Shown here: positions 46,439 to 49,812 of the stretch, one piece after another
How the letters are laid out: every line of letters starts with the position of its first letter
Position numbering within the stretch: the first letter of the stretch is position 1
Source: Amycolatopsis sp. FDAARGOS 1241
Lineage (GTDB): Bacteria; Actinomycetota; Actinomycetes; Mycobacteriales; Pseudonocardiaceae
DNA: 64,000 nucleotides
Direction: 5' to 3'
Assembly (NCBI RefSeq): GCF_016889705.1
Contig: NZ_CP069526.1
Location: forward strand, 7,771,001-7,835,000
Translations under genes and position numbers: made by a program
Notes under the pieces: generated by a model
What the model saw: the letters and a program-made list of their open reading frames with translations, nothing else
What the model was told of the DNA's origin: nothing
Databases searched by the model: none

Positions 46439-46696
46439 TCAGTCCTGGAACCGGCGCGACCGGTCGGCCGCCCACCGGGCGACGCGGGCCCACCGGCGCG
46501 CGGCGCGTGCGCGACGCCAAGGGCGTTGCCCTTGCACTGCTTCCTCCAGATCCCGTATTCGGGCCCTGGACAGTTCTTCGTGAAGCAACATTTCGCTGGT
46601 CTCCTGAGTGTCGTTCTGCTGTGGAAGCGGCTGCGCGCGATCCGGTTCGCGGGTGCGCGCCTCGTAATCGCGGATGGTGATCAGCTCGACGGTCAT
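46439..46696 (-). CDS. Small protein translationally coupled to whiB7
   Basis: An 85-residue protein whose ATG overlaps the whiB7 stop (ATGA). It has an acidic-to-mixed N-terminal half (MTVELITIRDYEARTREPD), a Glu-rich helix (ETSEMLLHEELSRARIRDLEEA) that could form a coiled coil, and a very basic C-terminus (RPWRRARAARRWARVARWAADRSRRFQD). The basic tail suggests nucleic acid or ribosome contact. A terminator follows at once, so whiB7 and this gene form the whole transcript. Function unknown. Confidence 0.7.
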   Translation of the reverse strand: MTVELITIRDYEARTREPDRAQPLPQQNDTQETSEMLLHEELSRARIRDLEEAVQGQRPWRRARAARRWARVARWAADRSRRFQD

Positions 46697-47037
46697 GCGG
46701 CGGCGCTCCCGGCAGCGGCAGCGGGCTCGAGTGCGGCGTTCTTGCGCGGACGGCCACGAGGCCGCTTCCGCGCGATGACGACACCGCGCTCGAAGATCTC
46801 GCCACCCCAGACCCCCCACGGCTCACGCCGGGCAAGGGCACCCGCGAGGCAGGCCTCGCGGACGGGGCAGTCGGCGCACAGGGACTTGGCGCGCTCGAGC
46901 TCGGCCGGCGACTCGGCGAACCAGAGGTCTGCGTCGCGGGAACGGCAGGGCAGCTCGAGCTCGGGGGCGGCGACCCCGTCGAGCAGGTCGCCGATACCGA
47001 GGTCGAACCCCTCGGCGAAGGCGATGGCGGACGACAT
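46693..47037 (-). CDS. whiB7: WhiB7 redox-type transcription factor, antibiotic-stress regulator
   Basis: Wbl protein that binds the primary sigma factor and activates intrinsic resistance genes on ribosome stress. The 114-residue protein has the four Fe-S cysteines C31, C54, C57, C63, the turn GVWGGE (75-80), and an AT-hook KRPRGRPRK (91-99) that is diagnostic of WhiB7 among Wbl proteins. ATG 47037 has AGAGGAG seven bases upstream; upstream in-frame ATGs lie before that site. A long leader with uORF and attenuator precedes it. The neighbours uvrD2 and the ABC1 kinase match the mycobacterial locus. Confidence 0.95.
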   Translation of the reverse strand: MSSAIAFAEGFDLGIGDLLDGVAAPELELPCRSRDADLWFAESPAELERAKSLCADCPVREACLAGALARREPWGVWGGEIFERGVVIARKRPRGRPRKNAALEPAAAAGSAAA

Positions 47038-47117
47038 TTCCGTGCTCCTCTTCATCGTTGCGGTGGTTTTCGAACTGTCGATCGAACTGGACAACTTGTT
47101 CCTCGGGTTGTGCAGCC

Positions 47118-47166
47118 AAAAAACACGAAGGCCGCGGATCCGGTTACCGGTTCCGCGGCCTTCGTG
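47118..47166 (-). terminator. Intrinsic terminator (attenuator) in the whiB7 leader
   Basis: Minus strand: a perfect 14-bp stem CACGAAGGCCGCGG (47153-47166 pairing with 47124-47137), 15-base loop, then T6 (47118-47123). It lies 81 bp upstream of the whiB7 start and inside its leader, so it must be passed for expression. A smaller hairpin TCCTGAC-CTA-GTCAGGA sits just upstream at about 47177-47193, overlapping the end of the uORF. Confidence 0.88.
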
Positions 47167-47186
47167 AGCCTCGTGTCCTGACTAGG

Positions 47187-47447
47187 TCAGGAACTTCGCT
47201 CCCGTAGCGACAACGGAACACGGAACTGCTTGATGGTCGGCAGATCGACATCGACCTGCGGGTACGCGCCAACGAAGGCAGCGTTGGCCAGGGTGACCTC
47301 GACCGAGGCCCACGTACGCTCGTCGACCCGGCGAACTCCACCGAGGTGAGCACTCGTGGACACACCGGTGCCCTGGCGCGAAGCGGGAATGAGTCCGCAG
47401 CCGGACAGACCGGTGCCAGGGTTCGTGAGCGTCATGTTGCAGATCAT
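47187..47447 (-). CDS. Candidate leader ORF (uORF) of whiB7
   Basis: An 86-codon frame from ATG 47447 (MICNMTLTNPGTGL) to TGA at 47187, ending 20 bases before the attenuator stem. AAAGGTGG lies about 10 bases upstream of the ATG. An in-frame ATG at 47507 would give 106 codons. No homology is recognised; the arrangement uORF-then-terminator matches known ribosome-mediated attenuation of whiB7 genes. Which start is used, and whether a shorter frame acts instead, is not settled by the sequence. Confidence 0.5.
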   Translation of the reverse strand: MICNMTLTNPGTGLSGCGLIPASRQGTGVSTSAHLGGVRRVDERTWASVEVTLANAAFVGAYPQVDVDLPTIKQFRVPLSLRERSS

Positions 47448-47545
47448 TTCACCGGCACCACCTTTCGCTGTCCGGACGTTGCCGCACCGGGCGGCACTCG
47501 TCAACATGGATCCCCAGACCGGGCTCTTCCCACCCGGGTACGTGC

Positions 47546-47582
47546 AGGTTATTGCCCCTGCGAGACGGGGGCAACTCATTTT
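47546..47582 (-). promoter_or_regulatory. WhiB7-autoregulated promoter
   Basis: Minus strand: AAAAT (47578-47582), three bases, TTGCCC as -35 (47569-47574), 17-base spacer, TAACCT as -10 (47546-47551). The AT-rich tract three bases upstream of -35 is the known WhiB7-SigA promoter signature. Predicted transcript start near 47539, giving a leader of about 500 nt. Confidence 0.8.
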
Positions 47583-47657: not shown

Positions 47658-49748
47658 TCAAGACCGCATCGTCGAGCGGACCACGTCGAGCACCTCCGCG
47701 CCGAAGCGTTCGAGCTTCGTCGCGCCGATGCCGGAGATCGACACGAGCGCTCCGTCGTCGGTCGGTCGCTGTTCGGCGATCGCCATCAGCGTCGCGTCCG
47801 TGAACACCACGAACGCCGGCACCTTCAGCTCCCGCGAACGCTCACCACGCCACGTCTTCAGCTTCTCGAGGAGTTCTTCGTCCACTGTGGACGGGCACTT
47901 CGAGCACCGTCCCAGCTTCACCTCCATCGTCTGCAGCAGCGGCCCGCCGCAAAGCCGGCAACGCGCGACCTTCGTGCCCGCCGGCGACGCCTGGTGTGAC
48001 CGCGCGACGCGGGCCGCCGGGTGGTCCTCCGGGATCAACCCGTAGAGGAACCGGCTGCGCCGCCGGTTGCGCCGGCCGCCCGGGGTGCGCGACAGCGACC
48101 ACGACAGCGACAGGTGCTCGCGCGCCCGCGTGACGCCGACGTAGAACAGCCGGCGCTCCTCTTCGATGGCCGCGTCGTCGCCGTCGGCGTGGAGGATCGG
48201 CATCGTGCCCTCGGACAGGCCGACGAGGAACACCGCATCCCACTCCAGGCCCTTCGCCGCGTGCAGCGACGCCAGCGTGACCCCCTCGACCGTCGGCGGG
48301 TGCTGGGCCGCCGCGCGCTGGTCGAGTTCGGCGACCAGCCGCGGGAGGTCGGCGTCCTCGACGGCCGCCGAAAGCTCCTCGGCCAGCTCCACCAGCGCGA
48401 GCAGCGCGTCCCACCGCTCCTTCGCCGCGCCGCCCGCCGGCGGCTGCTCGGTGAGGCCGACGCGCGCGAGCACCGAGCGGACTGTCGTGACCAGGTCAGC
48501 CCCGGCGGGATCGCCGGACGCGACGCGCAGCGCCGACATCGCCTGCCGCACCTCGGCGCGCGCGAAGAACCGTTCGCCGCCGCGGACGAGGTACGGGATG
48601 CCGGCTTCGGTGAGCGCCTGCTCGTAAGCCTCCGACTGCGCGTTGACGCGGAACAGCACCGCGATCTCGCTCGCCGCCACTCCCCCGTCGAGCAGCTCGC
48701 GCACGCGCCGCGCGACGGCCGAGGCCTCCGCGGACTCGTCGTCGTACTCGGCGAACCGCGGCTCTGGCCCGGACTGCCGCTGGCCGACGAGCTTCAGCCG
48801 CGAGCCCGCCGGTCGCCCGCGCGCGGCGCCGATCACCCGGTTCGCGAGCGCGACGACCTCGGGTGTCGACCGGTAGTCGCGCTCGAGACGCACGACGGTG
48901 GCCTCGGGGAAGCGCCGCGTGAACTCCAGCAGCGGTCGCGGCGAAGCGCCGCCGAACGAGTAGATGGTCTGGTTCGCGTCGCCGACGACGGTGAGGTCGT
49001 CGCGGCCGCCGAGCCACGCGTCGAGCAGCCGCTGCTGCAACGGCGTGACGTCCTGGTACTCGTCGACCACGAAGCAGCGATAGCGGTCGCGGAACTCCGT
49101 CGCGACGGCCTCGTGCTCTTCGAGTACTGCCGTGGTGTGCAGCAGGAGGTCGTCGAAGTCGAGGACCTGCGCGGAATTCTTGAGCTCTTCGTACAGCCGG
49201 TAGACCTGCGCGACCTGGGCGACCGGCGCCGGGGTGTCGCGCTGCGTGCGCGCCGCGACGGCCGGGTAGTCGTCCGGCGACACGAGCGACGCCTTGCTCC
49301 ACTCGATCTCGCTCGCGAGGTCGCGCAGCACCTCGACCTCCGTGCTCAGCCGCGCGCGCTGGGCGGCCTGCGCGACGAGCCGCATTTTGTTGTCGACGAG
49401 GTCCCACGGCCGGTCGCCGACCACGCGCGGCCAGAAGTAGCGCAGCTGCCGGCGCGCGGCGGCGTGGAACGTGAGCGCCTGCGCGGCGTCGACGCCCAGA
49501 CCGCGCAGCCGCGTGCGCATCTCGCCCGCCGCGCGCGCGGTGAACGTGACGGCGAGCACCTGCCCGGCCGCGACGTGACCCGACCTGACCAGGTGCGCGA
49601 TGCGGTGGGTGATCGTTCGCGTCTTGCCCGTCCCGGCGCCGGCGAGGACGCAGACGGGTCCGCGCGGCGCGGCGGCGGCGGCACGTTGCTCGGGGTCGAG
49701 CCCGTCCAGGAGGCTCGGACGGCTCTTCGGAGACGATGCGCTTGCCAC
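47658..49748 (-). CDS. uvrD2: ATP-dependent DNA helicase UvrD2
   Basis: Superfamily I 3'-5' helicase, 696 residues. Walker [14 protein letters not shown], motif Ia [11 protein letters not shown], motif [11 protein letters not shown], motif [16 protein letters not shown], motif [14 protein letters not shown], motif [15 protein letters not shown]. The C-terminal part has the four-Cys element CRLCGG...CSKC and an HRDC domain ([20 protein letters not shown] ... ISGIG), the UvrD2 hallmark. I place the start at GTG 49748 (VASASSPKS), with GAGG eight bases upstream. Divergent from the DUF4191 gene. Confidence 0.95.
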
Positions 49749-49812
49749 CCCGCGATCCTCGCAGAGGGGGCCGACGGATTCGTGGCAGGGCACGCGGCCG
49801 TATCCTGGTTAA

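Follow-up and report, generated by a model that had tools for sequence, protein, structure and literature searches.

As reportedly described by Burian and Thompson in 2018 and by Lee, Lee and Roe in 2022, the whiB7/wblC leader of Streptomyces and of mycobacteria is an attenuator. The trp and his leaders, attenuators that work through the position of a ribosome, are rich in the amino acid that they sense. Attenuation of whiB7/wblC by an upstream open reading frame (uORF), together with a response to starvation, has been published, as described in passages of PMC11550727, PMC12421871, PMC13236596, PMC4128351, PMC13393426, PMC7157823 and PMC10727445. An AT-rich site adjoining the −35 element is given as the rule for WhiB7 promoters in a passage of PMC7157823, and passages of PMC13236596 and PMC10727445 cite an alanine response in mycobacteria.

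Judged by its sequence, the whiB7 locus of Amycolatopsis sp. FDAARGOS 1241 described here is a ribosome-controlled transcription attenuator of this known whiB7/wblC kind. It lies in a stretch of 64,000 nucleotides, referred to here as the window. Near-complete amino-acid coverage, read from uORF translations, extends class-wide outside the mycobacteria, was repeated in a second set of loci and looks new; the literature surveyed (titles, abstract beginnings and passages) gives no description of amino-acid coverage of a whiB7 uORF, and key primary papers could contain one.

Loci and cassette calling

The comparison used 271 loci, repeats included (L202 is the same as L001), drawn from named genomes and from the genus, family, order and class to which the window belongs. 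A cassette of terminator and uORF was called at 239 of these and at 34 of 40 fresh loci, by simple scripts for which an uncalled cassette is not proof of absence. The loci dropped from the first set comprised 24 with no called terminator, 4 with no called uORF, 3 with a uORF longer than 130 codons and 1 that was too short; from the fresh set, 3 had no terminator, 1 had no uORF and 2 had a uORF outside 40–130 codons. Non-redundant sets were made by thinning on the overlap of three-residue words, which also handles repeated genomes. uORFs shorter than 40 codons were left out of these sets and kept in the group counts. The trimmed and halves tests with n = 137 excluded mycobacterial uORFs, which were kept in the set of 139, the fresh set and the pooled set of 154.

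Promoter, whiB7 and neighbouring genes

The promoter, whiB7 and its upstream neighbour comprise the following features.

47578..47582, minus strand: AAAAT tract, predicted WhiB7-type activator site, 3 bases upstream of the −35
47569..47574, minus strand: −35 element TTGCCC, its TTGC conserved in the genus alignment
47546..47551, minus strand: −10 element TAACCT after a 17-base spacer; predicted transcription start near 47539
46693..47037, minus strand: whiB7, 114 amino acids (Pfam Whib, E 2.6e-16), with four invariant cysteines, EPWGVWGGE and a C-terminal RPRGRPRK
47045..47050, minus strand: whiB7 ribosome site GAGGAG, from sequence
47658..49793, minus strand: uvrD2-like gene for a UvrD-type helicase with an HRDC domain (Pfam/NCBIfam), the upstream neighbour

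An earlier reading made from the letters alone (the sequence-only reading) had described a promoter here, and it was found as described on the minus strand: AAAAT (47582–47578), GAG, TTGCCC (47574–47569), the 17-base spacer and TAACCT (47551–47546). An AT-rich site thereby adjoins the −35 of the whiB7 promoter. The pattern AAAW-N3-5-TTG-N19-21-TAnnnT occurs upstream of the uORF at 195 of the 239 loci, against 0.1 expected from letter shuffles.

Located between the −35 and −10 is a perfect 7-base inverted repeat, TTGCCCC-N9-GGGGCAA (47574–47552), which is also perfect in L014 with its bases changed. As an operator this repeat was rejected, its arms matching no better than swapped arms among 161 distinct of 222 promoters (2.73 versus 2.70, z 0.4).

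The whiB7 start at 47037 was likewise correctly placed by that reading and has a good ribosome site, GAGGAG, 7 bases upstream. Mostly invariant among 12 aligned relatives are the four cysteines, EPWGVWGGE and RPRGRPRK, and a match to whiB7 with E 3.4e-30 or better was found in 58 of the 60 genomes searched (its own included), with weak matches in the other two. The product has the WhiB domain, the four cysteines and a C-terminal AT-hook of a WhiB7 ortholog, with uvrD2 adjoining; the AT-hook and the uvrD2 neighbourhood we take to be marks of WhiB7. Of 311 fetched loci, 267 have the C-terminal stretch of UvrD2. An 85-codon open reading frame (46439–46696, minus strand), which has no Pfam or NCBIfam match, overlaps whiB7 at its end by ATGA.

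The upstream open reading frame

Between the promoter and whiB7 lies the uORF with the following features.

47187..47447, minus strand: uORF of 86 codons and TGA, with all 20 amino acids represented even when the last 12 codons are left off
47456..47464, minus strand: uORF ribosome site AAGGTGGTG, agreeing with AAGGAGGTG at 8 of 9 positions, 8 bases before the ATG
47403..47417, minus strand: in-frame motif GGCACCGGTCTGTCC (GTGLS), first copy
47358..47372, minus strand: in-frame motif GGCACCGGTGTGTCC (GTGVS), second copy

As had been reported from the letters, the frame closes at the TGA at 47189–47187 and is open from the ATG at 47507 (106 codons) or the ATG at 47447 (86 codons). The 86-codon start appears likelier, because the genus alignment has an ATG or GTG at this place throughout and AAGGTGGTG lies eight bases upstream in the window; relatives carry a AAGGAGGTG-like ribosome site. 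The 106-codon start was rejected: it is kept in frame by no relative shown, and in L009 and L014 an ATG near there meets an immediate stop.

Aligned for the genus were the leaders of the window and of 35 same-genus genomes, and in all 36 the frame closes at the corresponding TGA. The cassette caller passed 35 of the 36, the exception being L021 (G019), which has about 88 extra bases within the terminator loop; both arms are present, and its relative L020 lacks the extra bases. Across the 35 Amycolatopsis cassettes the uORF frame is free of stops in 35, the +1 frame in none, the +2 frame in 13 and the antisense frame in 29.

The uORF spans 79–100 codons at the 35 Amycolatopsis loci and has a median of 81 residues after the start among 139 non-redundant uORFs of the class, across which it stops about 15–35 bases before the terminator. 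The sequence-only reading had proposed the length and sequence of this uORF as new. The length was discarded as a novelty, as it overlaps those of relatives and lengths like 86 codons are usual in the order and class; the sequence is indeed particular to the genus, and the notable feature is instead its amino-acid coverage.

Over 113 overlapping pairs of the 35 loci, picked at 3–22% divergence, dN/dS is 0.54 for the uORF as a whole and 0.46 for its middle. Silent change drops from a pS of 0.161 for the whole to 0.018 for the final 13 codons, a sign that the RNA is constrained in this part. That reading had also proposed aligning the leaders to see whether the uORF or only the hairpins are conserved; both are, with the last 13 codons frozen in DNA, the frame kept and the middle variable. 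The two in-frame motif copies share the form GGCACCGGT[C/G]TGTCC. With up to 3 mismatches allowed, the GTG[LV]S motif is found at 116 of the 239 loci, against 7.5 expected from codon shuffles, and 156 of its 158 occurrences are in frame 0.

Terminator and antiterminator

At and beyond the end of the uORF are two structures that share sequence, the terminator and a predicted antiterminator.

47124..47166, minus strand: Rho-independent terminator hairpin, from fold and covariation
47118..47123, minus strand: T6 tract of the terminator, from sequence
47198..47226, minus strand: antiterminator 5′ strand, within the last uORF codons, from fold and conserved pairing
47173..47194, minus strand: antiterminator apical hairpin, holding the uORF stop (47189–47187), from fold and the doubly changed pairs of helix 5
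47143..47169, minus strand: antiterminator 3′ strand, common to the terminator 5′ arm, from fold and conserved pairing

The gap from the uORF stop to the terminator hairpin is 20 bases, as had been claimed, and the small hairpin claimed at the stop is CCTGAC-CTA-GTCAGG. The terminator hairpin and its T6 are also present, but the "perfect 14-bp" stem in fact consists of 15 bp and, beyond a 1×1 mismatch, a further 4 bp. In erm-type translation attenuators the leader sequesters the gene's ribosome site and does not terminate transcription; at this locus the whiB7 ribosome site comes 67 bases after the T6. Over 46 nt (47165–47120) the terminator folds with −36.5 kcal/mol (z −8.1 against 200 shuffles). 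In 30 family leaders 95.2% of its cells are paired, with 6 doubly changed cells, a number that none of 500 shuffles reaches.

A predicted antiterminator exists in which the last 12 or so uORF codons pair with the terminator 5′ arm, the stop hairpin forming the tip; the search for a competing fold suggested by the sequence-only reading was thus answered, with pairing conserved in energy and place. The segment 47264–47142 folds with −52.7 kcal/mol (z −3.55), giving a long stem before the terminator 3′ arm is made. In 139 leaders, pairing between the terminator arm and the 45 nt at the end of the uORF has a mean energy of −25.2 kcal/mol, compared with −20.0 for codon-shuffled uORFs (mean z −1.37), a result that depends in part on the restriction to the uORF end, picked after a search of the whole uORF. 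Other windows of the same uORF pair with the arm at −20.4 kcal/mol, and the upstream strand ends 0–14 nt before the stop in 128 of the 139. In the unrestricted search of the whole uORF (113 loci) the best partner is often elsewhere, with a mean z of −0.73 and 38% of loci below −1.

In 30 aligned leaders, 75.3% of antiterminator cells are paired, against 28–40% when slid, and three doubly changed pairs fall in helix 5. Overall there are 7 doubly changed pairs, equalled by 224 of 500 shuffles, and a covariation score reached by 20 of 500. Owing to this modest covariation, the antiterminator is rested more on pairing energy and position. Found at this locus, then, are a uORF with a ribosome site just before a Rho-independent terminator and a putative antiterminator sharing uORF and terminator sequence. 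No Rfam family matches the leader at the gathering score; two weak sub-threshold matches have E values of 0.19 and 0.99.

Amino-acid coverage of the uORF

No single residue occurs more than 9 times in the 86 codons of the window uORF. Taken alone, its holding all 20 amino acids is weak evidence, because random peptides this long reach all 20 in about 8–10% of cases. The 139 non-redundant uORFs average 18.81 distinct residues, with 17.63 expected from pooled composition, and 40% of them hold all 20, with 8% expected. In the pooled non-redundant set, 60 of 154 hold all 20, compared with 12.5 expected. Coverage is not in excess when this DNA is translated in frame +1, in frame +2 or antisense. 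Serving as a further control are 149 segments of 84 amino acids from coding sequences, taken from 34 mechanically called, GC3-filtered open reading frames of the window, some of which are perhaps not genes; 2 of the 149 hold all 20. Residue counts vary less than chance would give: their median dispersion is 0.58 in 55 very dissimilar uORFs, as against 1.02, 0.87 and 0.82 in the other frames and 1.55 in protein segments. The last 12 codons are those that a ribosome would need to cover for the gene to stay off; without them the excess holds (z 12.7 in the count test), all 20 residues being present in 38 of 137 uORFs with 4.7% expected.

Counted by group, without thinning, all 20 amino acids are present in 22 of 35 uORFs of Amycolatopsis, 24 of 59 from others of the family, 6 of 19 from other families of the order, 7 of 7 from genus g87 (genomes of 5.8–9.7 Mb, probably Streptomyces) and 19 of 48 others from the class search (among which L213, L218 and L224 are order members). 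None of the 17 from Mycobacterium has all 20, 10 of these being named and 7 assigned from group and likeness. Coverage is a tendency: 94 of the 154 uORFs lack at least one residue, most often W or C. The rare residues W, C and Y usually occur once each per uORF, and their positions vary. In 58 dissimilar uORFs, sole residues fall in the four quarters 5, 17, 9 and 4 times for W and 8, 10, 11 and 6 times for Y. Distinct codons have no excess beyond that of the amino acids (36.24 versus 36.09 in 34 fresh uORFs), which suggests that coverage is counted in amino acids and not in codons.

The mycobacterial uORFs (L144, L151, L155, L160, L168 and others) are short, with a median of 61 residues, and rich in alanine; 16 of the 17 have no cysteine. 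The three-residue pattern R/K-X-R/K is enriched in the uORFs with or without their last 16 residues.

Common descent and replication

Shared ancestry inflates the simple count test, and the weight is therefore carried by a test in which the halves of uORFs are swapped. The inflation is seen in the UvrD2 tails, whose count excess falls with thinning from z 7.2 (loose cut, 148 kept) to 4.3 (middle cut, 79) and 1.0 (strict cut, 20). In the uORFs the count excess persists, with z 7.5 in 58 dissimilar and z 4.3 in 15 very dissimilar uORFs.

Across the 154 pooled uORFs, mycobacteria kept, the two true halves of a uORF together hold 18.77 distinct residues, against 18.20 when halves are swapped (z 9.1); in the 58 very dissimilar uORFs z is 6.7. 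For the twelve rarer residues the halves compensate for one another, with an odds ratio of 0.29 compared with 1.00 (s.d. 0.12) after permutation (137 non-mycobacterial uORFs). This compensation is absent from the UvrD2 tails (z −1.7 to −0.9) and from frames +1 and +2 (z −3.9 and −1.2).

The replication drew on 40 unused loci, half of them further species of sampled family genera, with the same caller and with expectations from the first set. Its 34 uORFs average 18.59 distinct residues, compared with 17.54 expected (z 5.0); 10 hold all 20, compared with 2.4 expected, and the halves test gives z 4.5. The 13 uORFs unlike the first set give z 2.9 and, in the halves test, z 2.8, with four holding all 20 compared with 0.6 expected. 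In the replication, frames +1 and +2 remain at z −0.4 to 1.0.

Proposed mechanism and alternatives

The attenuation reading of the locus has good support from anatomy and conservation, and the sequence-only interpretation as a whole is partly supported. The best explanation, and in our judgement a likely one, is an attenuator whose long uORF would act as a detector for the whole amino-acid alphabet. To the parts, the frame conservation, the antiterminator pairing and the coverage, all read from sequence, we add by inference an occupancy logic, autoactivation and selection of the coverage for wider sensing. When translation is good, the leading ribosome would read the 86-codon uORF to its stop, where it would cover the antiterminator strand and the tip hairpin, so that the terminator forms and whiB7 stays untranscribed. 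A ribosome lagging or stopping before about codon 74 would leave the strand free, and it would pair with the 5′ arm of the terminator while the 3′ arm is still to be made. With the antiterminator formed, RNA polymerase would read on, and WhiB7 would amplify its own promoter through the AAAAT tract. In its simplest reading this would be a race between the leading ribosome, which has to arrive at the stop, and the synthesis of the terminator arm. As the uORF tends to retain one or more codons for almost all of the amino acids, any shortage of a charged tRNA or any slowing drug could delay the ribosome. We lean towards the view that the whiB7 leader peptide is a pangram by selection, its sequence changing fast while every amino acid stays represented ahead of the decision point, that it would thereby be a general monitor of translation, and that mycobacteria switched to an alanine-weighted version.

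One alternative is an ordinary attenuator in which the uORF is a long translated spacer, its variety coming from shared descent and composition. We consider it unlikely. In its favour are the excess over multinomial expectation in UvrD2 tails when relatives are kept, at the loosest cut, and the W and Y that often stand at corresponding places in Amycolatopsis. It fits poorly with the compensation between halves, strong in uORFs and absent from UvrD2 tails and other frames, with the excess that persists in the 58 and 15 very dissimilar uORFs, and with single rare residues that shift position. The small-protein reading, by which the uORF product would have a function of its own, is very improbable: the overall dN/dS and the recurrent in-frame GTG[LV]S motif are what it would lead one to expect, but nothing in Pfam or NCBIfam matches the uORF at E 0.001, its sequence and length turn over widely, and RNA pairing explains its best-conserved part, where the DNA itself is frozen.

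Variety might also serve drug sensing and not amino-acid sensing, by offering many peptide contexts that arrest ribosomes under different antibiotics, a possibility that we regard as doubtful. The enriched R/K-X-R/K is a macrolide arrest context, present 1.29 times per uORF, compared with 0.83 expected (z 7.1, n = 139), and 1.33 times compared with 0.98 in the strict set (z 3.3, n = 55). Adjacent R/K pairs are enriched too, more weakly and in the larger set only (z 2.6), so that enrichment is not peculiar to the spaced form; PP motifs show none (0.47 versus 0.53). That whiB7 attenuation answers antibiotics, as stated in a passage of the review PMC11550727, agrees with drug sensing, but drug sensing alone would leave unexplained why W, C and Y occur once each in a uORF. 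Contexts for drug arrest may instead add to the amino-acid coverage, as a second layer compatible with the whole-alphabet detector.

Comparison with known attenuators

If the uORF does sample the whole alphabet, the breadth of the response over unrelated antibiotics and amino-acid starvation would have a simple cause. The length of the uORF and the drift of its sequence would then be explained, and the idea could be tested codon by codon. The design rule would be the opposite of that of trp-type leaders, and the mycobacterial version would not be typical.

One uORF that answers several classes of ribosome-targeting drugs, like the whiB7 uORF, is toiL of topAI, as described in passages of PMC12121999, where ribosome stalling within the whiB7 uORF is said not to have been tested. 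With the ilvB1NC attenuator (passages of PMC13236596) the locus would have in common that the position of a ribosome in the leader decides between terminator and antiterminator. It differs from ilvB1NC and from the trp and his leaders, which are devoted to one or a few amino acids, in that the window uORF holds all 20, the rarest once or twice. The enrichment in one amino acid that marks a single-amino-acid attenuator is thus absent from the window uORF, and the alanine-rich mycobacterial uORFs come nearer to it, fitting the published alanine-starvation response. With the whiB7/wblC attenuator, as described in passages of PMC11550727, PMC10727445, PMC13393426 and PMC4128351, the locus shares a putatively WhiB7-activated promoter, a long leader, a uORF ending just before a Rho-independent terminator and a predicted antiterminator made of uORF and terminator sequence. 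From the known whiB7/wblC leaders it differs in its genus-specific uORF sequence, the mycobacterial uORFs found here being shorter and alanine-rich.
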